This document shows positions 3,701 through 18,487 of a stretch of DNA of 43,242 nt, one piece after another. The notes under the pieces are model-generated. The model searched no databases, was not told the origin of the DNA, and saw only the letters and a list, made by a program, of their open reading frames with translations. The stretch is taken from positions 1 through 43,242 of IMG/VR virus record IMGVR_UViG_3300034158_000003; one strand, written 5' to 3'. The stretch comes from a virus. Numbering within the stretch: position 1 is the stretch's first letter; each line of letters starts with the position of its first letter. The position numbers and the translations under genes were made by a program.

Positions 3701-4134
3701 TTCTGAAGACTCAGCAGCGTAGGCAGCTTGATTGCCGGGATGCGACCGCGAGACTTCCAGGTGTGATAGTCGGAGACGCTGCAAAATGCGGCGGCACACA
3801 GGTTGCTGACGCTGCCGAATTGTTTGGCTAGGCTGACCAGCAGCTTGGCGTCACCAGTGATTGCCACCGGCTTAACGCCTGGATTCGGACCTGGGAATTC
3901 CTGCGCCCATTCTTCAGCAGTCAGGTCAGGCCGAAACTCTTCTTTCATTCGCCCGGTCTTCTCCGCCAGCGCGAAGGCGGCTCGGCGGGACATGTAGCCC
4001 CTTTTAACCCAGAGCGCCGCCGCTGGCTGGCAGACACCGACAGCGCGACCCAGCGCGGCCGCAGAGCCGTATTCATCGATCAGGCTTGCAAGCACTCGGC
4101 CCCGGTCGTCTTGCTGAAGATCAATTGGAGGCAT
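3697..4134 (-). CDS. Small transcriptional repressor with two tandem Cro/YdaS-like HTH units
   Basis: 145 aa. Residues 23-60 read as a YdaS/Cro-like HTH (AALGRAVGVCQPAAALWVKR). Residues 106-143 repeat the pattern (GSVSNLCAAAFCSVSDYHTW, then KSRGRIPAIKL). A Pro/Gly linker (81-92) joins them. Members of this family are phage repressors that bind short operators. The gene is divergent from the early operon at 4215, and a 13-bp dyad lies between the two promoters, so autoregulation and early-gene control are likely. In-frame upstream Met codons are ignored because they lie across the promoter region. CI-like or Cro-like behaviour cannot be told from sequence. Confidence 0.8.
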   Translation of the reverse strand: MPPIDLQQDDRGRVLASLIDEYGSAAALGRAVGVCQPAAALWVKRGYMSRRAAFALAEKTGRMKEEFRPDLTAEEWAQEFPGPNPGVKPVAITGDAKLLVSLAKQFGSVSNLCAAAFCSVSDYHTWKSRGRIPAIKLPTLLSLQK

Positions 4135-4147
4135 AATTAATTCCGTG

Positions 4148-4177
4148 TTGACATAGTGATTATGTTTCGCGGATAGT
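4148..4177 (+). promoter_or_regulatory. Early promoter and operator, plus strand
   Basis: TTGACA at 4148-4153 with GATAGT (18-bp spacer) or GGATAG (17-bp). The spacer contains the dyad CATAGTGATTATG at 4152-4164, one of at least six copies of this operator in the genome. It drives the gene at 4215. Confidence 0.75.
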
Positions 4178-4202
4178 ACCACCGGAGAGACAATTATGGC
4201 AA
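4173..4202 (-). promoter_or_regulatory. Promoter for the repressor/primase operon, minus strand
   Basis: On the minus strand TTGCCA (4202-4197) is followed after 18 bp by TACTAT (4178-4173). The predicted start lies just before the dyad at 4152-4164, so a protein bound there would block this promoter and the opposing early promoter together. Confidence 0.55.
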
Positions 4203-4214
4203 TGGAGAAGAGAG

Positions 4215-4427
4215 ATGTCAGACTGGAACAAGATCGAGGATTCCCCGCCGCAAGCTGGCGATTATCTGCTACTGCTCGGTGACGGCTCGATGGCTGTGGG
4301 CTACTGGGATGCGTGGAAAGAATGGTCGCCGAGCGGGGTATACCCAACATATGACGGCTGCGGCACAGTCGCTTTCGATGCAGCTCCAACTTACTGGCAA
4401 CCACTTCCTGAGCCGCCAGTAAAATGA
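4215..4427 (+). CDS. DUF551-like small protein
   Basis: 70 aa. It shows the DUF551 layout: an N-terminal W-x(5)-P-P segment (WNKIEDSPPQAG), a central VGYWDAW stretch and a C-terminal THWMPLP-like ending (TYWQPLPEPP). DUF551 proteins are common in phages of Enterobacteria and Pseudomonas and have no established role. It is the first gene after the early promoter, with GGAGAAG upstream of the ATG. A second DUF551-like gene lies at 42512. The stop overlaps the next ATG. Confidence 0.8.
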   Translation: MSDWNKIEDSPPQAGDYLLLLGDGSMAVGYWDAWKEWSPSGVYPTYDGCGTVAFDAAPTYWQPLPEPPVK

Positions 4428-4687
4428 AGACGCACAGCAGATGCCGCCACTGCCTGGCCAGGCGCAAGCTCAAGAAACACCCGGAAGCCTATCGCCTCCA
4501 GCCAAAATGCCTATGCGGCGCCCGAGACTGGCGCAAGGACGAATACCGTCACCGAGTCGAGGTCGTGCAAATGCGCGCCAAGACGGGCAGATACCTACCC
4601 TGCCACGCTGATTGTTTTCCGCACCCGCACCGAGCCGGCTCGACAGGCTGCAAATTTGACAAAGACTTTAATTATCGCGACAACTGA
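4424..4687 (+). CDS. Cys/His-rich zinc protein of phage early regions
   Basis: 87 aa. C-x2-C near residues 7-10 (CRHCLARRKLKKHPEAY), then a C-x-C and the GARDWRKD motif, then CHADCFPHPHRAGS ... C. Basic throughout (Lys/Arg). This motif set is familiar from small phage proteins encoded beside replication genes. Zinc binding is likely and the role is unknown. ATGA overlap with the preceding gene places it in the early operon. Confidence 0.8.
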   Translation: MKTHSRCRHCLARRKLKKHPEAYRLQPKCLCGARDWRKDEYRHRVEVVQMRAKTGRYLPCHADCFPHPHRAGSTGCKFDKDFNYRDN

Positions 4688-4696
4688 TTCGATGGT

Positions 4697-4713
4697 TTGA
4701 TATAGTTGTTATC
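4697..4713 (+). promoter_or_regulatory. Weak relative of the operator/promoter unit
   Basis: TTGATATAGTTGTTATC keeps most of the TTGACATAGTTATTATG unit, but its -10 (GAAATG) is poor. Downstream the usual GACAGGAGCAA ribosome site precedes the ParB-like gene, so the unit may be a diverged copy. Confidence 0.5.
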
Positions 4714-4741
4714 CGCACGGAAATGACAGGAGCAACATAAA

Positions 4742-5656
4742 TTGGCCTATACCCTCAACAACATCGCATCCGACAAAGAAAACACCGCGGCAAAACGTGG
4801 TGATTCGATCCGCGCACTGCACAGCAAAATCAAGATCGTCAACGGTTTCAATGAGCGTGATTTTCAGCGCGAAGACGTGCGCCTTCATATCGCCTCAATC
4901 GTCGCTGCACTGATTGCTGGCGAGCCGATTCCTGCGCTGGTCGTCTGGACGAATCCAGAAACCGGCGACATCGAGCTGGTCGATGGCGAGTGCCGTTATT
5001 GGGCCTACAGCGATTTCGCTGGCTCCTACCCGGATCGCTTCGACGGTTATGTGAGTGTCGTTCCGTTCCAGGGCACGCCAGCACAGCGTAAGGCCATGGT
5101 AGCCAAGAGCAACAGCCAGCTGCCGCTTGATCCTGTCCAGCGTGGCCGCGTTTATCTTTCCCTGCGCGATGAACACGGCATGACTCGCCAGGATATCGCC
5201 GCCGAAATAGGCAAGTCCCTGGCGCACGTCGATCAGATGATTCTGCTGGCCAGTGCAAAGCCTGAAGTTCTGGCTGCGGTCGACTCTGGATCTATCAGCG
5301 CCACAGAGGCCGTGAAGCTGACTCGCGAGCATGGTGACGATGCGCCAGCCGAGCTGGAGCGCCTCCAGGAGGCCGCTAAAGATCTCGGCAAGGACAAGGT
5401 GACGGCCAAGGTTGCCAAGCCTAAAGCGCCGAGTCGTCCAAAGGTTGACATGGTTGTTTCTAATGCGGTGGTGTTGGTCAAGTCATTGACCGCTGAGCAA
5501 TTGGAAGCCTGCGAACTTCCTGAGCGCGGCTTCATCGCCATTGATTCTCACGCACTCGCCGATCTCATCCAGGCCGTCAACGACATGCGCGAATCTGGCA
5601 AGGCGTTGGATGCTGATAAGCAAGCGGAATTGTTTGAGGGTGAAAATAATGAATAA
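4742..5656 (+). CDS. ParB/Spo0J-like nuclease-fold DNA-binding protein
   Basis: 304 aa from a TTG start placed 8 bases after GGAGC; no upstream ATG is available in frame. Residues 20-125 match the ParB N-terminal domain (LHSKIKIVNGFNERDF; IPALVVWTNPETG; VDGECRYWAY in place of the DGERR box; KAMVAKSNSQLPLDPVQRG). Residues 140-170 form the HTH (MTRQDIAAEIGKSLAHVDQM). The C-terminus is helical and Lys/Pro-linked. Phage ParB-like proteins act in plasmid-type partition, gene regulation or as nucleases. No ParA is present, so partition is unlikely. The 3' end overlaps the next gene. Confidence 0.85.
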   Translation: MAYTLNNIASDKENTAAKRGDSIRALHSKIKIVNGFNERDFQREDVRLHIASIVAALIAGEPIPALVVWTNPETGDIELVDGECRYWAYSDFAGSYPDRFDGYVSVVPFQGTPAQRKAMVAKSNSQLPLDPVQRGRVYLSLRDEHGMTRQDIAAEIGKSLAHVDQMILLASAKPEVLAAVDSGSISATEAVKLTREHGDDAPAELERLQEAAKDLGKDKVTAKVAKPKAPSRPKVDMVVSNAVVLVKSLTAEQLEACELPERGFIAIDSHALADLIQAVNDMRESGKALDADKQAELFEGENNE

Positions 5657-6023
5657 GCCGATCCCACCGATAAAAGCCTACGACGTGCAGAGCGACGAAT
5701 ACGGGACAATTGAGTTTGCCCGCTATAGCGTGGTCGCTCGACGTGACGGCGCCAACGAACTGAACATTGATTTTGAAGATGTTGTTTCGTGCCGAAGAGT
5801 GCCAGAGCTGGATAAATACGCCGGCGTTAAAGGCGGCGTACCTATGAAGGTTTTGGTCGAAGAACACGGCTGGTCGCAGGAGTGTGGGAGCTGCTATCGC
5901 CGAGTTTATAGCGACGAAAAAGCCCGCGTATGGGTAACGGACAATCAGGTTTGCTGCGACCTTGAATGCGAGGCGCGCCGCGAGAATTATCACCGCAATG
6001 TCGGCATCAAGGATGATGAATAA
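5649..6023 (+). CDS. Hypothetical Cys-containing protein, 124 aa
   Basis: The start at 5649 is preferred to an in-frame opening at 5541 because it gives an 8-bp overlap with the ParB-like gene and a GAGGG ribosome site (GAGGGTGAAAATAATG). The C-terminal half has CGSC ... CCDLEC, possibly a zinc site. No family recognised. It lies between the ParB-like and helicase genes, and its stop overlaps the helicase ATG. Confidence 0.65.
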   Translation: MNKPIPPIKAYDVQSDEYGTIEFARYSVVARRDGANELNIDFEDVVSCRRVPELDKYAGVKGGVPMKVLVEEHGWSQECGSCYRRVYSDEKARVWVTDNQVCCDLECEARRENYHRNVGIKDDE

Positions 6024-8065
6024 TGGCTCTCCAGCTCCTAGAGCATCAGCTCCCAACAATCGCCGCCATGCAAAAACACTTCCGCAGCCGCGAGACGGTG
6101 AAGTGGGGCGACCGAGATATTCATCCGCCTATCGTCTGCAACGCCTCTGTTTCAAGCGGCAAAAGCATAATGATCGCGGCACTGGCCATGGCGGTCAGAA
6201 AGGCCGCCATCAACGCTGCAAAGCCTAGATCTGTCCTCGTGCTGGTCATCCAGCGCCAGGGTGAGCTGTGCATGCAGAACTCAGAAGCCGCCTGGCAGTT
6301 CAACGACGAATCCAAACTGCTGAACAACAGTCTATTCTCGGCCAGTTGCGGCAAGGTCAAATCGACCCATTTTCAAGTGGTATACGCTACCGAGGGCACG
6401 CTTTCCCGCGCTCTGGGTTTCGGCGTAAAAGCCAAGGATGGCGAGGAGCCTGAAGCGCCAAAGCCTCAATACCGCTTCTCTCCGTGCACCGTTGAAGAGA
6501 TGACCAAGACGCCCGAGCAGCGCGCACTGATGAAGAAGTTCCACCCGGACCTGATCATGTGGGATGAGTGCCACCAGATCCCATACGATAATCCGGACAG
6601 CATGGCGGTCAAGATCCTTGAGCATTTCTACGACTGCAAGCCAGCAATGCGTTTCGCAGGATTCAGCGGGTCATGCTTTCGCGGCATCGAGTCTATCGTC
6701 GGCGATACGCCTCAGCACTTATGGCGCAAGTTCGCCAGCATCAAGCCGGACGATCCTGATTACCCGGAGGGCGGGGTAGGCGACGGCATCATCACCACTG
6801 AATTCATGATCGAACAAGGCTGGGTCGTTCCGCCGACATTCGGCTATCCAGACGACACGGATAAGCAATACGACTTCAGTCACCTCAACCCGAACGGCTG
6901 GGAATATGACGAAGCGGAGATGGATGCCATTGTCAGCGATCACCAAAAGCTGCTGGCGGTCTGCTCTGACGTAATCGAGAAGTCGGCCAGCCGTAAGGGC
7001 GTACTGATCTTCGCAGCAACCCAGCGGCATGCCAGGCAGATCGCTGCCGCCATGAAAGACCTCGGCGTTGACCCAGACACCATTGGCGTCATCACCGAGA
7101 AGACCAAGGACAAGGATCGTCGTCGGATTCTGGATCAGGCGAAAACCGGCGTCATCAAGTACACGATCAACGTGGCCGTTCTGACGACAGGAGTTAACGT
7201 GCCGTGGTGGGACACGCTGGTGTTCATGCGGCCAATCGGATCTCTGGTTCTGTTGATCCAAGCTATCGGTCGAGTTCTGCGCCTGCTGATCCTTGACGGC
7301 GAAGTTCCGATGTTTGAGCGCTCCAACCTGTTCGGCCTGACTGCGGCGGATCGACTGGAGCTGATTGCAGCCAGCAGCAAGCCGGATGCTCTAGTGATGG
7401 ATTATGCCGACGTGATGAACACGCTCGGGCACCTGTACGACAACCAGATTCTCGAACAGGCCGAGCTGGAGAAGGCGAAGAAGGAGAAAAAGGATCTGAT
7501 CGAGTGCCCGAAATGTATGGCCGACCTGGGTGTTCAGACCATGAACAGTCCTTCGGCGCGGCGCTGCATCTATCGCGACAACAAGGGCGAGCGCTGTGAG
7601 CACTTCTGGCACTTCAGGTTGTGTCCTGGCTGCATGACTCAGAACGACCAAGTGGCCAGGGAGTGCCGCTCATGCCGTCGCATGCTGATCGATCCAAATG
7701 CCGTACTGAACAATAAGAGTTATTCCGATGGCGAGTCGATTCCTGTGCGCTCGATGAAAGCCGGCCACGGATCAGGCGGAAAACTCTGGTTCCGATACGA
7801 GCTCTCGACCGGCGACACGCCGATGGAAATCTTCTATCCGCATGCCGGCGACAACAAGAAGGTCAACAACATCATCTGGGGCAAGTTCGTTGATGCGCTG
7901 CCGATTGATCAGCGGTCGCGTCTAAGGTTGCGGGCAATGAAGGCTGAAACCGTTATGGAAAACATTGATCTGATACCGGTTCCGGCTGAGTTATCGGCGC
8001 GGAAGAAGGGGAGTCGCTGGACCATAGGCCGCCGTCGCTATCAGGAACAGGAGGTTGCGCTTTGA
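6023..8065 (+). CDS. SF2 DEAD/DEAH-type helicase with C-terminal zinc ribbons
   Basis: 680 aa. Motif I (ASVSSGKS, residues 41-48), motif II DECH (181-184), FSGS near 214-217, and the helicase C-terminal lobe with motif VI QAIGRVLR (413-420) define a superfamily 2 ATPase. After the helicase core comes a helical Lys/Glu segment and four CxxC-type half sites (C495/C498, C515/C525, C534/C537, C548/C551), likely zinc-binding, then about 120 further residues. It probably unwinds or translocates on DNA during phage replication or recombination. The next gene, a VRR-NUC-like nuclease, overlaps by TTGA, and this helicase-nuclease pair is a recurrent phage arrangement. Confidence 0.9.
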   Translation: MALQLLEHQLPTIAAMQKHFRSRETVKWGDRDIHPPIVCNASVSSGKSIMIAALAMAVRKAAINAAKPRSVLVLVIQRQGELCMQNSEAAWQFNDESKLLNNSLFSASCGKVKSTHFQVVYATEGTLSRALGFGVKAKDGEEPEAPKPQYRFSPCTVEEMTKTPEQRALMKKFHPDLIMWDECHQIPYDNPDSMAVKILEHFYDCKPAMRFAGFSGSCFRGIESIVGDTPQHLWRKFASIKPDDPDYPEGGVGDGIITTEFMIEQGWVVPPTFGYPDDTDKQYDFSHLNPNGWEYDEAEMDAIVSDHQKLLAVCSDVIEKSASRKGVLIFAATQRHARQIAAAMKDLGVDPDTIGVITEKTKDKDRRRILDQAKTGVIKYTINVAVLTTGVNVPWWDTLVFMRPIGSLVLLIQAIGRVLRLLILDGEVPMFERSNLFGLTAADRLELIAASSKPDALVMDYADVMNTLGHLYDNQILEQAELEKAKKEKKDLIECPKCMADLGVQTMNSPSARRCIYRDNKGERCEHFWHFRLCPGCMTQNDQVARECRSCRRMLIDPNAVLNNKSYSDGESIPVRSMKAGHGSGGKLWFRYELSTGDTPMEIFYPHAGDNKKVNNIIWGKFVDALPIDQRSRLRLRAMKAETVMENIDLIPVPAELSARKKGSRWTIGRRRYQEQEVAL

Positions 8066-8463
8066 TTCGCATCTACGACAGCGGCTATCGTGGGGAATGC
8101 CGAACCGAGCGATGCGAGCAAATCGACTGCATATCCTGGCTAAAGCATAACCATGCTGACCGCTGGCCGCTGATCTTCCATTGTCCAGGGGAGACGAAAG
8201 CCAGCCCCCAGCATATGCAAATGCGCGCCAAGGAAGGCGTTAAAGCTGGGCCGCCAGACATCATCGATCTCGGCGGCATTGTCGGCCTGTTCGAACTCAA
8301 AAGGCTTGACCGCACGAAGTCAGCGGTCAGCAAGGAGCAAAAGGATTTCTTGCGGGCTGGCGCTGAACAAGGTCACTTCGCCGCCATCGTCTACGGCTTC
8401 GAGCAGTTCAAGCTGGCCTATGCTGATTATCTGGCATTTATCGCAGAGAAACGATTGACATAG
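8062..8463 (+). CDS. VRR-NUC-like PD-(D/E)xK nuclease
   Basis: 133 aa. A TTG start with a strong GGAGG 7 bases upstream overlaps the helicase stop. The core motif is KEGVKAGPPDIIDLGG (D66) followed by LFELKR (E78-x-K80) and a Q-containing helix (KEQKDFLRAGAEQGHFA), which matches the VRR-NUC fold of Holliday-junction or flap-type nucleases. It likely works with the helicase. The final codons RLT-stop are written by the next promoter's TTGACATAG. Confidence 0.8.
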   Translation: MIRIYDSGYRGECRTERCEQIDCISWLKHNHADRWPLIFHCPGETKASPQHMQMRAKEGVKAGPPDIIDLGGIVGLFELKRLDRTKSAVSKEQKDFLRAGAEQGHFAAIVYGFEQFKLAYADYLAFIAEKRLT

Positions 8464-12641: not shown

Positions 12642-13232
12642 TCACTTATCCGGCTTCGTCACCGTGCCAGCGGAGGTGGCGAAGTCCGTGACAATCGCAT
12701 TCTGTTTCTGCGACTCCTTGGTCATACCGAACCAAAATCCCATCACTTCCTTTGTCATGCCCAGCCACAGGCCGAGCACGGTTCCGACTGTCAGCGCAGC
12801 GGTCGGATCTTTGATGACCTCGTTCGCCCACCCGATCAGCACGGCCACGACGACAAACAGGGATCCGCCCAGCATGATGAACGTCAGGGCAGGCCGCACA
12901 ATGTCATTCGGCTGCTTGCCGGCCAACTGCCTGGCGCTATCCCGATCAGCAGCTTCGGCGGCATATTGCGCGCCAGCAGCCTGGAGCCGGATCGTTTCAG
13001 CCTGAACAGACAGCTTCTCCAGCTCGACACGCGCATTCAATTGCAGCTCTTGCACACGAACCATGGCGCCAGGGTTGCCAGCGAGCGCCACACTGACCGC
13101 GTCAGGGTCATTTGGCACATTCAGTGCGCTAGCGACCAAAGCGCCTACAGCAGCGCCAGCGGGGCCACCAAGCAGGGTGCCGACGATTGGCGCAGCTCGC
13201 CCAACGATTCCGCCGATATCAGACCAGTTCAT
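12642..13232 (-). CDS. 3TM-type holin
   Basis: 196 aa from the ATG at 13232 (GGAGTG upstream; 13271 is a longer, less likely opening). An N-terminal Gly/Ala-rich hydrophobic segment (about residues 8-35), a helical Glu/Gln-rich middle, then two clear membrane helices (LTFIMLGGSLFVVVAVLIGW and ALTVGTVLGLWLGM). This matches the 'holin of 3TMs' family associated with phage and gene-transfer-agent release. Predicted to time lysis. It overlaps the endolysin stop and is the last gene of the late operon. Confidence 0.8.
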   Translation of the reverse strand: MNWSDIGGIVGRAAPIVGTLLGGPAGAAVGALVASALNVPNDPDAVSVALAGNPGAMVRVQELQLNARVELEKLSVQAETIRLQAAGAQYAAEAADRDSARQLAGKQPNDIVRPALTFIMLGGSLFVVVAVLIGWANEVIKDPTAALTVGTVLGLWLGMTKEVMGFWFGMTKESQKQNAIVTDFATSAGTVTKPDK

Positions 13233-13699
13233 CGCACGCACTCCAATCCAAAAGCCCAAGACGCCGCCCATTCTTCAGGATGCGGCCTGCCTGGACGCCA
13301 CAGACGCTCGGCATACATCTCCCAGGCATCAGCGGAATTAGCTGGAAGTGGAAACGGATCGGTGTACATCAGCAGGCGGGCAAAGACGGCGCCCAAGACA
13401 TCGTCAGTTTCCATTGCCTTCCATACGGCCATGCGTTCCGGCTCTACGCCGCACGCTTTGCACGCTTCTTTGGCGAGCTTGGCGGTAGCCAAATGGCTCA
13501 GCACGCCATTGATCGCAGCAAGTCGCCCATTTTCAAACTGCCAATAAGACCGCGCCGGACCATTGCCGTACTGGATGCGAACCTTGTATTTCGATTCCTG
13601 ATAGCCGATGGCCGCGTGAATGACTCGCGCCAGCCTGGAATCCATCTTGACCGGCAGCAACTGGAATGCCGCGTCTACTGCTGCTTTCGGGTAGGTCAT
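13229..13699 (-). CDS. Endolysin, lysozyme/lytic-transglycosylase fold
   Basis: 156 aa. The segment AAIGYQESKYKVRIQ (E35 as likely catalytic acid), GPARSYWQFE (48-56) and an NG-x(3)-A-x-NGVL segment match small phage endolysins with a GH23-like motif (E-S ... GPARG-WQFE). It should cleave the glycan strand of peptidoglycan. No signal sequence, so release depends on the neighbouring holin. ATGA overlap with the upstream gene. Confidence 0.85.
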   Translation of the reverse strand: MTYPKAAVDAAFQLLPVKMDSRLARVIHAAIGYQESKYKVRIQYGNGPARSYWQFENGRLAAINGVLSHLATAKLAKEACKACGVEPERMAVWKAMETDDVLGAVFARLLMYTDPFPLPANSADAWEMYAERLWRPGRPHPEEWAASWAFGLECVR

Positions 13700-14001
13700 T
13701 TCGCATTCACTCCAATTCGGCAGACGCCGACCAATGCCGCGATTTCTTTGTCTTTCTTCCCGAGCTGCCGCATATAACGATTATGTAGACTGGCCCGCTC
13801 CTTGCCTGCCGCCACCGAGAACTCTGCCAGCACCTCTTGATGCTTGGCATCCGTGGCCGCCAGCGTATCCTGATACTTGATCGACGCCATCGAATAGCCG
13901 AAACCTACAGCCAGGGCAATCGAGATAGCCCCGTAACACATGAAAAGCTTCCGCTCTTTCGATGCTCTAACTGGATCACAGTGTTGTGATTGATCGGACA
14001 T
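13696..14001 (-). CDS. Rz-like inner-membrane spanin candidate
   Basis: 101 aa from the ATG at 14001, preceded by GGAGGG. Cytoplasmic basic start, one membrane helix (MCYGAISIALAVGFGYSMA), then a periplasmic helical segment (TLAATDAKHQEVLAEFSVAAGKERASL). This topology and its position in the lysis cassette suggest an i-spanin. No lipoprotein o-spanin was identified, so the call is tentative. Confidence 0.6.
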   Translation of the reverse strand: MSDQSQHCDPVRASKERKLFMCYGAISIALAVGFGYSMASIKYQDTLAATDAKHQEVLAEFSVAAGKERASLHNRYMRQLGKKDKEIAALVGVCRIGVNAK

Positions 14002-14338
14002 TTGACCCTCCGCCAAGCTTGCGGACTTCTGCGCGCAGCTCTTCGTTTTCTTCTCGCAAATGCTTGATCTGTTCGATCATCACCGCATTCTGCGCCTTCA
14101 TTTCGGACTGATCGATAATGATTTGGTTCAGCTTGGCTCGGTAATCATCAATAGCAGTTTCAGCCTTTTCAGCCCTTGACTGCCATCTGTCGCGATCCTC
14201 AGAAAGAATTGTGACCTGTGTCACTTCGTTCTTTTGAGCCTGAACCCATTTGTTCCAGGCCGCAATGCAGGCAAAGAACACACCGACAGCCGTAGCGATT
14301 GTGGTTGGCAGACCGGTCAGGCTAACAGGGTCATCCAT
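13976..14338 (-). CDS. Membrane-anchored coiled-coil lysis-cassette protein
   Basis: 120 aa. The start at 14338 has AAGGATC upstream; an in-frame extension (Met at 14368 and further) would cross a strong hairpin. An N-terminal membrane helix (TTIATAVGVFFACIAAWNKW) is followed by about 75 residues of coiled coil (LSEDRDRWQSRAEKAETAID; HLREENEELRAEVRKLGG). It could be an antiholin or second spanin-like protein. It overlaps the next gene by 26 bases. Confidence 0.65.
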   Translation of the reverse strand: MDDPVSLTGLPTTIATAVGVFFACIAAWNKWVQAQKNEVTQVTILSEDRDRWQSRAEKAETAIDDYRAKLNQIIIDQSEMKAQNAVMIEQIKHLREENEELRAEVRKLGGGSNVRSITTL

Positions 14339-14361
14339 GCTTGATCCTTGGCGAAGTTGTT

Positions 14362-14383
14362 GCGCCATCGTTACGGATGGCGC
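14362..14383. other. Perfect 8-bp inverted repeat before the lysis cassette
   Basis: GCGCCATC, GTTACG, GATGGCGC. It lies between the transglutaminase-like gene and the lysis genes. No T-run follows on either strand, so it is not a standard terminator; it may be an mRNA processing or translational control hairpin. Confidence 0.6.
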
Positions 14384-14457
14384 TTTGGCATTATCGTCAA
14401 GATAACACTTATTGTCCGGCCGCCAAAACCTGCGCGACGGACAGCGCGAACAGTAGC

Positions 14458-15189
14458 CTACACAACCGTCTGGAATATACGGCGATACCACAGTTCGGAC
14501 TGCTCAGGCGTATCAAGCATCAACGCCCAGTAAAGGCCAAGGTCGAGGTTGCCCGCGTAATCGTGATTGTACTTGTAGTCGTAATCAAGACGCACACGCT
14601 CTGGCATGGCACCACCGCCGGCAATATGCGCGATGAATTCGGCGGTGCTGAGGTGCTTGCCCGCTGCATCGCGGAAGTAGCAGCCATTCGTCAGGTCCCA
14701 CATGCGCCACTCCGCCCCATGTAAGGTCTCAAAAATCACATGGCCGTCGTCGTAACCGTTCTTCGCCCCGAGGGTGCTGACGTTCTTGATGCGCGCACTC
14801 ACGCCAATCTGAGGCATCAGCCACGCACACATAGCGGCGATGTAGCCGCAGCGGGCCGACCACTTGACGAACCTCCCGGAGTTGCTCATGGCTTGCAGTG
14901 AGGCGCTATCGAACCCCTGCTCCGTGCCAGTTCCGTGCACATGGTTCCAGCTAATTCCGCTGAGTGCCGCGTACACGTCCAGGGCTGCACCCGAACCAAG
15001 CACGATGCGGTTCATAAAGTACCCTGCTGGATTCCACCAGCGGTACAGCCCCTGGCGCGCGCAGTCGTAGCTTACGCCAGCAACCACGTACACACCGGGC
15101 ACCATGAAAGCCGAGCCACCCGGCAGGGCAGTTCCGCCAACGGTTGCCGGGATATCCGACTGTTCATCATGAACATAAAATTTACTCAC
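14458..15189 (-). CDS. Transglutaminase-like (Cys-His-Asp) protein of the tail-fibre locus
   Basis: 243 aa. A GTG start overlaps the stop of the small gene before it (GTGA). The segment ARCGYIAAMCAWLMPQIGVS, with C114, then DDGHVIFET (H150) and WRMWDLTNG (D165), has the order and spacing of the transglutaminase/papain-like core, in which Cys starts a helix and His and Asp lie on adjacent strands. The N-terminal 110 residues look like a separate domain. The family includes amidases, peptidases and cross-linking enzymes. Its location directly after the tail fibre suggests a virion component acting on the cell surface, but a lysis or host-directed role is also possible. Identification is by motif only. 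Confidence 0.65.
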   Translation of the reverse strand: MSKFYVHDEQSDIPATVGGTALPGGSAFMVPGVYVVAGVSYDCARQGLYRWWNPAGYFMNRIVLGSGAALDVYAALSGISWNHVHGTGTEQGFDSASLQAMSNSGRFVKWSARCGYIAAMCAWLMPQIGVSARIKNVSTLGAKNGYDDGHVIFETLHGAEWRMWDLTNGCYFRDAAGKHLSTAEFIAHIAGGGAMPERVRLDYDYKYNHDYAGNLDLGLYWALMLDTPEQSELWYRRIFQTVV

Positions 15190-15329
15190 GGGGCGCTTCT
15201 CTCCATTAATCGCTTGTAAAACTCGGCGAGTTCTTTGTGGTTTTCTTTAAGGAATTCTTCGGCGTGGCCAGGTTGCGCGGACGAATAGGCCGCAACGATC
15301 TCGCCCGCCTCATTTCTTTCTACGAACAT
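15186..15329 (-). CDS. Small tail-fibre-associated protein, 47 aa
   Basis: MFVERNEAGEIVAAYSSAQP followed by HAEEFLKENHKEL and a basic end. The start overlaps the tail-fibre stop (TAATG) and the stop overlaps the next GTG. Very short proteins with an AAYSxxQPGxAEEFL pattern are typical just after fibre genes of Pseudomonas-type phages. They may be fibre assembly factors; this is unproven. Confidence 0.7.
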   Translation of the reverse strand: MFVERNEAGEIVAAYSSAQPGHAEEFLKENHKELAEFYKRLMERSAP

Positions 15330-16591
15330 TAGCGATTCTCCTTGTAGCCAACTGTCAACACGCGACCCCGCATGTTACCGGTTGCAAAAGTGCGCATGCG
15401 GACTTGAGACGATGCGTCGACATAAACTTGAAATTCTGCCGAGCCTGACTCGGTAGCTGACCCGCCGCCAGACTGGACGATAAGACCGCCAGTAAAGTCA
15501 GTTTCGGTCGCCCCCATTACGCTATCAGTCTGGTCAGTCGCGATCAGCTTCATACCGACGGCATCGCCGTACACGAGCGGCTGCATGCGGGCTGTGGCCA
15601 GCGCCAGGCCGGTAACCGTCAGCAGCGAAGTTGACGCCGCCACCGGACCGAAAGTTACTTCAACAATCGGCGTTACCCAGTCGAAGCACCCGTTGCCGCG
15701 ATCCTTGAATGCGCGGATGTTGCCAGATGCGTCCGTTACAGCTCGACCAATGCGGCGGAAGCCAACATAGCCACTTGGCATGGTGGGTGCGGTTGGTGAC
15801 AAGCTGTAAAGAATGTCATCGGCCATGGTTGGGTGTCCGATAGCGAACTTGTAGTACGTCGAGTTGATCGCCTTGGCGCCTGCGTCCAGTTTGTTCTGGT
15901 TGTCGCCGGCAGCCCACGCCCCGGAGGATTGCAGAATGCCGCGCAGGGTAGTGGTAGTCGCGATGTCAACAGTGTTTGTAGAGTCGCGGGCGGAGCCTGG
16001 CGCTACATCGAGCGTAGTGTTTGGGGCGCCCGAGTTATTCGCCAGCGCGAAGCCAGACAAATAACCTTGCGGGAGCCTAACCACCGACGCGACGGCGGCG
16101 GCAATTGCGGCCGCCACGCCGGCCGGATGCGTGGCCAGTGAAGTCGATGTTCCTGTAACTGTTTCGGCCGCCGTAGCCAGCTCAACGGAGCCGCGCAAAG
16201 TCTCAGTTGCTGCTGCGTAAAGCTCCCGCCACTGACTCGGGGAGGACGCAGGAGTATTGCCAACGTTGGTATTGATCAGCGACGAGTAAACCACGCCGGC
16301 AACGTTGCACAGGCTCCCGATGTGGTATTCCTGAGCAGCGTTGTATTCGGCGATACCGATCTGATGGAGGTACGCCGAAAGCTGGCCGTTCGTGTACATC
16401 GCGCCGTTGAAGTCTTCAAGCGTTGGCTGGTCGGAAGGCCCGACGATTCCCCAGCCGCGCAGGAAGTCAGCGGTAAACTGACTGGTCAAGTCGTTAGCCT
16501 GAGTGACTTCGCCGAACAGTGTGCGTTCTGTGCCTAAGGCTGCTGAGGCGAAAGCCTTTACGTCGCCGTTGACCCGGACAATTTTTGCCAT
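15329..16591 (-). CDS. Tail fibre protein
   Basis: 420 aa. The N-terminus (FGEVTQANDLTSQFTADFLR to LEDFNGAMYTNGQLSAYLHQ) is the baseplate-attachment type found in phage and tailocin fibres. It is followed by an ATETLRGSVELATAAET motif, then a Gly/Thr/Ser-rich shaft and a beta-rich tip. It probably mediates receptor binding. It follows the DUF2612 baseplate gene by one base, as expected for the end of the baseplate operon. Confidence 0.85.
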   Translation of the reverse strand: MAKIVRVNGDVKAFASAALGTERTLFGEVTQANDLTSQFTADFLRGWGIVGPSDQPTLEDFNGAMYTNGQLSAYLHQIGIAEYNAAQEYHIGSLCNVAGVVYSSLINTNVGNTPASSPSQWRELYAAATETLRGSVELATAAETVTGTSTSLATHPAGVAAAIAAAVASVVRLPQGYLSGFALANNSGAPNTTLDVAPGSARDSTNTVDIATTTTLRGILQSSGAWAAGDNQNKLDAGAKAINSTYYKFAIGHPTMADDILYSLSPTAPTMPSGYVGFRRIGRAVTDASGNIRAFKDRGNGCFDWVTPIVEVTFGPVAASTSLLTVTGLALATARMQPLVYGDAVGMKLIATDQTDSVMGATETDFTGGLIVQSGGGSATESGSAEFQVYVDASSQVRMRTFATGNMRGRVLTVGYKENR

Positions 16592-16592
16592 G

Positions 16593-17309
16593 TTAGATCA
16601 CCTTTCTTGCAAAGAGGCCGCCAATTCTAAGCGGGTCAAATTTACTCGCGAAGCCTTGCGAAAGCGGATTGTTCGCGAAGCCGAATGTGCTGCCAGGTTC
16701 TGCCTGGATGATTACCTTGTATCGAACACCCTGCGGCTTTGGCAGCAGATTAAGAGCCTGAATCAGCCTTAATCGGTCAAGGCTCACAACGGGCGAAACA
16801 TAAAGAGTCAGCGTCATGTCGAGGTTGTCGACAACGTAGGCGCGACCATCAAACGCGGCGAGTACGACGTCCTGAATGCTGATGTACTGGTCGCTAGATA
16901 CGTATCCGGCCGCCCGGTTTAGCGATGCCTTGACACGAATGAAAAACCGATAATCGTTATCGCCAAGCTGCAAGTCAGTGAATGCCGACGAGAACTTGCT
17001 GTAAAACGGACCGCCAATACGGAGAGGATTGAACTTGCTGGTGAACCCTTCATTGTTTGGGTTGATGCTGAAGCCGAAATAGACCTTCGGGATTACGCCG
17101 GGAACTGAACGGCTGATGCCGACGATTCGACCAAGCACGTCAAGCTGCGGGCCTATTGCGTTATCCAGATCGAAGGCCGGGTCAAGCGCCGCGATAAACG
17201 CCCGAGTCTTCTCCCAGGTCGCAGCCTGAAGCTCAATTTCAGCCTTGGCTTTCGGCTTCTCCCAATACTGCTTGATCAGGAGGTTCGCGGTTTCGTCGAT
17301 TAGCGCCAC
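16593..17309 (-). CDS. DUF2612 baseplate protein
   Basis: 238 aa. The N-terminus DETANLLIKQYWEKPK and the LDVLGRIVGISRSVPG segment are characteristic of DUF2612, the myophage counterpart of P2 gpI/Mu gp48 that links baseplate and fibre. Two copies of an aromatic/basic motif are present (FGFSINPNNEGFTSKF then NPLRIGGPF; FGFANNPLSQGFASKF then DPLRIGGLF), one in the middle and one at the C-terminus. Overlaps the gpJ gene by one base. Confidence 0.85.
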   Translation of the reverse strand: MALIDETANLLIKQYWEKPKAKAEIELQAATWEKTRAFIAALDPAFDLDNAIGPQLDVLGRIVGISRSVPGVIPKVYFGFSINPNNEGFTSKFNPLRIGGPFYSKFSSAFTDLQLGDNDYRFFIRVKASLNRAAGYVSSDQYISIQDVVLAAFDGRAYVVDNLDMTLTLYVSPVVSLDRLRLIQALNLLPKPQGVRYKVIIQAEPGSTFGFANNPLSQGFASKFDPLRIGGLFARKVI

Positions 17310-18487
17310 TAGATCACCTCGGTGATGGTGATGTTCGCTACGTCGATTTCGAATTTGGAGCCAGGGTCAGGCGTCAGCAGGCCGTCAGTGAATGTGACGT
17401 TATCATCGCTGATCTCCATCAGGGTTAGGATGAAGTCGTCGCCAGCGGTGTACGCTGGGCAATACAGCTCTGCGGCCTGAAGCGGCGTGCGGATGTAGAA
17501 TTTGTACGCGGCGATCTTCTGCTTGATCAGCGCCAAGTCAACCGGGACCAGAGGATCCTTCCGGGTGGCCGTAAGCGTGATGTAGATCGGCACCATGACA
17601 GGTCGGTCGAATCGGCGGATCTGATTTACGATGAAAGTGCTGCCATCAGGCCTGGTCAGCGTCTCTGGGATGATCGCCTCGATAGCGCCCTTGATTGGCG
17701 TACCTCCGGTCTTCTGGAAAAGCATCGCCTGCATGATGTCGTCAATCGTGCCGCCCTCGACTACCGCCCATATGCTATGGGCGACCATGTTGTTGATCGG
17801 ATCATAAACATCCGAATCATTGTCGTAGACGTAGGCGTCAGTCACGCCCGCCGTATTCAGTAGGCGAGCCGTCAGGGAGTTGGTCGTAGAAAACGCCGGA
17901 TTCTCAAGGCTTCGGTTGCGCTTCTGGACAAACTCTTCGTCAGTTTCTTCGTCCTTGCCTGGCTCGGCATCTACGGCAGCGGTGAAGCCTGTTACGCCGA
18001 GGACGACGGTTACTGGCGTGAATACGGCTCCGGCCAGCCCGGTAACAGAGCCGAAATCCGTAGCTTGGAAGGTGATTGCCGAAGTGCCAATCGGAAGAAT
18101 GACCGGCGCCGGAAGCTCCCAGAGCTGCCCGAGGTCATCGGATATTTGATATCCGGTCGGCAGCGTCAGGATGCGAGTCGTGACAACGGAAAGATCCCAG
18201 AAGGACCGGGTCGCAGGACGCGGGAACACGCCGGAAAGCTTGGCGATCTTCGCCTGGAAGATGCCGCGAGCGAAGTCAGGATCAAAGTTGTTTGCGATCC
18301 ACAGGCCGAAGGCCTGCATGTCTGCGCGAGACTTGGCCTCAATGGCGACACGCTGTCCGTCAGGGCTTTCCTGGTCGAGATTGATGTCGACACCGTAGAT
18401 CGCTTGATAACCGGCAACGAGTTCGGCAAGGATCTCGTCGAAGCTCTGAATCGTTATGCCATTGGCATCAATCGTCGGGCCTGCCAT
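17309..18487 (-). CDS. Baseplate wedge protein J (Mu gp47 family)
   Basis: 392 aa. The N-terminus (FDEILAELVAGYQAIYGVDI; NLDQESPDGQRVAIEAKS), the central DEETDEEFVQKRNRSLENPA motif and the VVEGGTIDDIMQAMLFQKTG to GTPIKG segment are classic for Baseplate_J. It forms the wedge ring that controls sheath contraction. Position between gp25-like and DUF2612 genes agrees. Confidence 0.9.
   Translation of the reverse strand: MAGPTIDANGITIQSFDEILAELVAGYQAIYGVDINLDQESPDGQRVAIEAKSRADMQAFGLWIANNFDPDFARGIFQAKIAKLSGVFPRPATRSFWDLSVVTTRILTLPTGYQISDDLGQLWELPAPVILPIGTSAITFQATDFGSVTGLAGAVFTPVTVVLGVTGFTAAVDAEPGKDEETDEEFVQKRNRSLENPAFSTTNSLTARLLNTAGVTDAYVYDNDSDVYDPINNMVAHSIWAVVEGGTIDDIMQAMLFQKTGGTPIKGAIEAIIPETLTRPDGSTFIVNQIRRFDRPVMVPIYITLTATRKDPLVPVDLALIKQKIAAYKFYIRTPLQAAELYCPAYTAGDDFILTLMEISDDNVTFTDGLLTPDPGSKFEIDVANITITEVI

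Follow-up and report, generated by a model that had tools for sequence, protein, structure and literature searches.

Two bacterial proteins of the transglutaminase superfamily offer close parallels to the enzyme reported here. WbmE of Bordetella bronchiseptica, which is encoded on the chromosome within the O-antigen locus, is described as a periplasmic enzyme that acts on the LPS O-chain, whose uronamides it deamidates (PMC3507681). HvyA of Caulobacter crescentus, a periplasmic transglutaminase homologue of the BTLCP type, limits capsulation and controls phage sensitivity by means of residues C192, H226 and D241 (PMC4241560). The fold and its Cys-His-Asp triad are also already known in phages, namely, in PeiW, PeiP and PeiR, which methanogen viruses and prophages encode as pseudomurein endoisopeptidases. 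Phage-encoded glycan modifiers are known as well. Prophage glycan modification that excludes rivals, for instance by Oac of D3, is well known (PMC11436027), and a deacetylating tailspike is described for Pectobacterium phage PP99 (PMC6989608). These two, together with gtr operons and the O-acetyltransferase of Burkholderia phage Magia, edit the surface glycan to which phages bind, as proposed here for a transglutaminase-like enzyme; however, they have other folds and work by acetyl or glucosyl transfer or as esterases.

The object of this study is a stretch of viral DNA of 43,242 nucleotides (IMG/VR record IMGVR_UViG_3300034158_000003, positions 1 to 43,242), referred to as the window, which encodes a transglutaminase-like protein in its tail region. 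In an incomplete search of the literature, we found no tail-fibre locus described as encoding a transglutaminase-like protein, nor any description of a fibre-tied family with this fold and exported second copies.

The locus, the fold and the catalytic triad

The gene of interest is located on the minus strand (14458..15189), with a GTG start at 15189 and a stop codon that ends at 14458, and its product of 243 aa has no signal peptide. A Shine-Dalgarno-like GGAGAG, read from the junction sequence, precedes the GTG by 9 nt (15199..15204, minus strand), and the start overlaps, as GTGA, the stop of a 47-aa ORF (15186..15329, minus strand). This small ORF, with homologues in contigs L001 (58%) and L002 (49%), overlaps at its other end the tail fibre gene (15329..16591, minus strand; 420 aa), which was recognized by its PHROG tail fibre match. 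The initial annotation had placed the enzyme directly behind the fibre; the link to the fibre holds, but not the immediate adjacency, as the enzyme is the second gene behind it on the minus strand, with the 47-aa ORF in between. Small ORFs behind the fibre were also seen in Bordetella phages and in phage Magia. Upstream of the fibre lies the baseplate (16593..18487, minus strand), including a DUF2612 protein (16593-17309) and a baseplate J protein (17309-18487), and downstream of the enzyme a probable lysis region (12642..14491, minus strand), with weak holin- and spanin-like matches. The window contains neither a second copy of the enzyme nor an integrase gene that we could find. It does encode a ParB-like partition protein (4742-5656, plus strand; PHROG E 1.4e-48), so that a phage-plasmid lifestyle is possible. 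In a search for near-identical DNA, no phage was found to be closely related to the window in its late region.

By the sequence databases searched, this is not a case of missed annotation. Searches of Pfam, PHROG, NCBIfam and the PDB sequences gave no significant match to the window protein, and a weak match to DUF6278 (E 0.025) was disregarded. No likeness to PeiW or PeiP was found with phmmer up to E 10, and profile searches of a PDB set that included the structures of both were negative up to E 1. Two homologues score above the cut-off of 23 bits with the Pfam profile Transglut_core (PF01841), P0015 with 25.0 and P0007 with 23.8 bits; P0003, P0005 and P0013 fall just under the cut-off, and the window protein has no match to this profile. 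The BTLCP profile is absent from the Pfam matches of all family members up to E 0.1-1, and none of them matches a peptidoglycan hydrolase profile of the NlpC/P60 or lysozyme type.

The structure of the window protein was approached by prediction. An AlphaFold2 model, obtained with an 11-sequence alignment as input (pLDDT 85, pTM 0.85), places C114 (codon at 14848..14850) at the N-terminus of helix 114-128, H150 (14740..14742) at the start of strand 150-157 and D165 (14695..14697) where the next strand, 160-165, ends, all three codons being on the minus strand. The leading high-probability PDB fold matches of this model, and most of the re-ranked PDB list, belong to the papain/transglutaminase superfamily. 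The best matches comprise a putative cysteine protease (3isr), PeiP, PeiW and transglutaminases, and arylamine N-acetyltransferases and vasohibins are also found among them. The scores are moderate but consistent, with Foldseek E values of at least 0.01, probabilities up to 0.98, and VIA Z of 5.4-6.1. VASH peptidases top the structural ranking for this model and for that of homologue P0011, for which Z reaches 8.4 with vasohibin and is about 7 with transglutaminases. No strong match was obtained from the viral structure library.

Relatives of the window protein were found in several IMG/VR contigs, namely, L007 (67% identity), L001 (60%), L002 (52%), L008 (38%), L009 (31%) and L010 (29%), with more distant homologues in L012, L013, L029 and L031. 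In addition, three B. bronchiseptica phages (PBb001, PBb002 and PY223) encode a relative of 30% identity, which has been annotated as hypothetical or left unannotated. No homologue was found on plasmids, nor in bacterial genomes by two scans, which use short patterns and so do not establish absence. C114, H150 and D165 are invariant across 15 homologues, the most distant of which have about 22% identity, and they are included in the only 12 invariant positions of the 15-sequence alignment; N144, D147, G149, E154, W161 and R133 surround the active site. A chance motif, which we had considered, is ruled out by this invariance. Within the family, dN ranges from 0.27 to 0.51 and synonymous sites are saturated, which argues that the enzyme gene is under purifying selection.

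These data bear out the initial annotation in its reading of the three residues, correctly numbered, in transglutaminase-like order. The two grounds for doubt that it had named, an unrelated predicted fold and a triad that is not conserved in homologues, were both checked, and neither was found. The window protein thus almost certainly has a transglutaminase-like fold with an intact triad. The order of the triad is that of HvyA, and its spacing (36 + 15 residues, against 34 + 15) is similar, a likeness drawn from the description of that protein; HvyA differs in being chromosomal and cell-cycle regulated, and the phage proteins lack a Pfam BTLCP match. PeiW, PeiP and PeiR resemble the window protein in being phage-encoded enzymes with this fold and a Cys-His-Asp triad, and are among its best fold matches; unlike it, they act on archaeal pseudomurein with a role in lysis, have no sequence match to it and are not linked to a fibre.

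Linkage to tail fibres

In every phage examined, at least one copy of the enzyme gene immediately follows a fibre gene or lies no more than 0.8 kb away from it. The two genes may adjoin, be separated by one small ORF, or have a gap of 0.3-0.8 kb between them (L012, L013), and start and stop codons overlap with the fibre or the small ORF in several unrelated phages. The fibres that precede the enzyme are of about eight types, which are not joined by BLAST at E 1e-3, and PHROG puts them into different families. Within these types, the fibres of L010 and L013 are related by BLAST, and those of the window, L001, L002 and L007 have a common C-terminal half (aa 166-420 in the window; 15332..16096, minus strand), while their N-terminal halves and baseplates differ. 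Between the window and L001, homology is limited to the C-terminal half of the fibre, the small ORF and the enzyme, at 48%, 58% and 60%, respectively, and does not extend to the N-terminal half of the fibre, the baseplate or the lysis genes; hence, the enzyme travels with the receptor-binding half. As judged from these alignments, the three elements constitute a cassette. With this co-transfer and the range of unrelated fibre types, the tie to the tail fibre is stronger than had been claimed from the window alone.

The fibre of the window is a chimera, whose residues 1-119 match Vibrio phage VBM1, a myophage, at 54%, and whose residues 73-309 are 47% identical to Pseudomonas phage vB_PsaM_M1. 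VBM1 has a related baseplate and no such enzyme gene behind its fibre, which indicates that the gene is accessory. In L031 (2455-7529), the structural genes that neighbour a copy with a Tat-type signal belong to PHROG families other than those of the window, so the enzyme crosses phage types. The possibility that the N-terminus of the enzyme serves as a tail adaptor was rejected, since this region is common to exported homologues.

Morons are frequent between fibre and lysis genes, and for this reason position alone is no proof of a shared substrate. The other occupants of this interval are among the evidence for an enzyme that edits surface glycans. In L013, a formyltransferase gene (4099-4839, minus strand; Formyl_trans_N PF00551, E 3.8e-12) is inserted between the fibre and the enzyme on the opposite strand, and its product is probably a sugar N-formyltransferase that serves in the conversion of surface glycans. 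Phage Magia, which has a baseplate J protein related to that of the window, carries a 58-aa ORF, the O-acetyltransferase and an outer-membrane lipid esterase between its fibre and holin genes, so that its O-acetyltransferase occupies the same slot as the window enzyme. A baseplate related to that of the window is also found in the Bordetella avium myophage IFTN9, one of a group of phages whose receptor has been shown to be LPS (PMC10269795).

Exported homologues and lysogeny

The window protein and nine homologues have no signal peptide, and export signals are present in six homologues, as judged by eye and with a hydropathy scan rather than with a trained predictor. These are Sec-type signals in P0013 and P0016 (L012 and L029), a Sec signal or membrane anchor in P0007 and P0011 (L001b and L009b, the latter being the weakest case), a lipobox, LLAGC, in P0015 (L007b), and a Tat signal, RREFLP, in P0017 (L031). 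Thus, the export to the periplasm that characterizes WbmE is a trait of these six homologues only and not of the window copy. Half of the exported homologues (L012, L029 and L031) are directly behind a fibre or close to it. A strict split, with signal-less copies coupled to fibres and exported copies not, was considered and is broken by L029 and L031, which are exported and adjoin a fibre. In three phages, L001, L007 and L009, a signal-less copy linked to the fibre coexists with an exported one, and all of these copies keep the triad. On the tree the two forms interleave (3 changes), implying that localisation switched while the enzyme stayed.

An integrase is encoded by five of the six phages with an exported copy, against one of the six without (one-sided Fisher p 0.04 for 12 records; 0.12 when two short fragments are removed). 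In L009, the signal-less (4983-5849) and exported (7209-8180) copies flank the lysis cassette of endolysin, Rz and Rz1, and a tRNA-Met separates the exported copy from the integrase, at a distance of 1-2 kb. Lysogenic conversion genes are usually found in such a setting. As a separate observation, a protein that starts with MCGRI is encoded beside the exported copy in L034 (G003; 621-1310) and L036 (G005; 2138-2809), and has by eye the look of an SOS-response-associated peptidase of the SRAP/YedK type.

The initial annotation had also suggested that the enzyme acts at entry on surface peptides or peptidoglycan. This is not supported as stated, given the six homologues with export signals: those near fibres would have their place of action in the producing cell's envelope, not on a virion that is assembled in the cytoplasm. 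Peptidoglycan, moreover, gives no reason for travel with receptor-binding modules, which makes a surface glycan the more economical substrate. On the whole, an entry enzyme is only partly supported.

Candidate roles of the enzyme

The best explanation of these results is that the enzyme belongs to the tail fibre, both functionally and by inheritance. The precedents of WbmE and HvyA, the Bordetella hosts, Oac of D3 and the deacetylating tailspike favour an amide-acting glycan editor, and we put at roughly 0.45 the probability that the window encodes a Cys-His-Asp enzyme of this kind, editing the surface glycan that serves the fibre as receptor. In such a reaction the cysteine would form a thioester with an amide carbonyl, followed by hydrolysis or transfer, and the substrate may be the polysaccharide to which the fibre binds, LPS O-chain or capsule, with deamidation of uronamides as in WbmE. 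WbmE is likened to the phage family from its description, as a member of the papain-like transglutaminase superfamily with Cys-His-Asp, and its host, B. bronchiseptica, is infected by three phages that carry the family; it differs in its place in an O-antigen locus, the window copy being linked to a fibre. Signal-less copies, namely, those of the window, L001a, L007a and the Bordetella phages, may reach their substrate on the virion or at lysis, and would process or destroy the receptor, for release or for adsorption. Signal-bearing copies, found mostly in phages that encode an integrase, would edit the receptor from inside, so that superinfecting phages are excluded. Because the window copy has neither an export signal nor a second copy to accompany it, we have to assume that it reaches the surface.

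Several other roles have to be weighed against glycan editing. An enzyme that is assembled with the fibre into the virion, and that cleaves a peptide or isopeptide bond in peptidoglycan or an outer-membrane protein at entry, would fit the overlapping codons that couple the gene to the fibre and the nine homologues without signal peptide; it also draws on the nearest phage enzymes of this fold, PeiP and PeiW, being pseudomurein isopeptidases, and on the VASH peptidases that head the structural ranking. We regard it as unlikely, however, since the Sec and Tat signals of the fibre-following L012, L029 and L031 would remove these proteins from virion assembly, and the co-transfer with receptor-binding halves would be left unexplained by peptidoglycan. 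Somewhat similarly placed is an enzyme that is not part of the virion and stays in the cytoplasm until lysis, when it would strip or alter the receptor on cell debris, which would otherwise trap the progeny. This alternative, which overlaps with glycan editing, would account for the interleaving of signal-less and signal-bearing forms and for a position between fibre and lysis genes, yet it makes the tight coupling to the fibre superfluous, and we consider it improbable as a separate role.

The position and coupling of the gene are, on the other hand, typical of fibre chaperones, and together with the co-transfer of the fibre C-terminal half they could point to a maturation enzyme or chaperone whose target is the fibre, which it might, for instance, cross-link or trim. 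Nevertheless, exported versions behind fibres cannot reach a cytoplasmic fibre, members of the one family are found behind about eight unrelated types of fibre, and second copies are located far from fibres, all of which makes such a role very unlikely. Least credible to us is an accessory moron unrelated to the receptor, acting on host proteins or small amines, perhaps in the manner of an N-acetyltransferase. That the interval between fibre and lysis genes often holds cargo, and that N-acetyltransferase folds occur among the structural matches, agrees with such a gene, but neither the start-stop overlaps in several unrelated phages nor the co-transfer with one particular half of the fibre would be expected of it.

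Returning to the editing of receptor glycans, the phages with both kinds of copy, L001, L007 and L009, lend themselves to a tentative and rather doubtful extension, in which editing takes place in two compartments. The signal-less, fibre-linked copy would serve the particle or the lysate and the exported copy the prophage, such that the amides of the fibre-bound glycan would be edited by the former for infection or escape, and by the latter to keep rivals out. The known phage edits of surface glycans are acetylation, glucosylation, removal of esters and chain cleavage. If our reading is correct, the editing of amides by a fibre-tied enzyme of the transglutaminase fold would add a further chemistry to these, and would predict that the receptor glycans of such phages contain uronamides or N-acyl sugars. 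The Bordetella phages PBb001, PBb002 and PY223, whose hosts can be cultured, provide gene pairs in which this could be tested.
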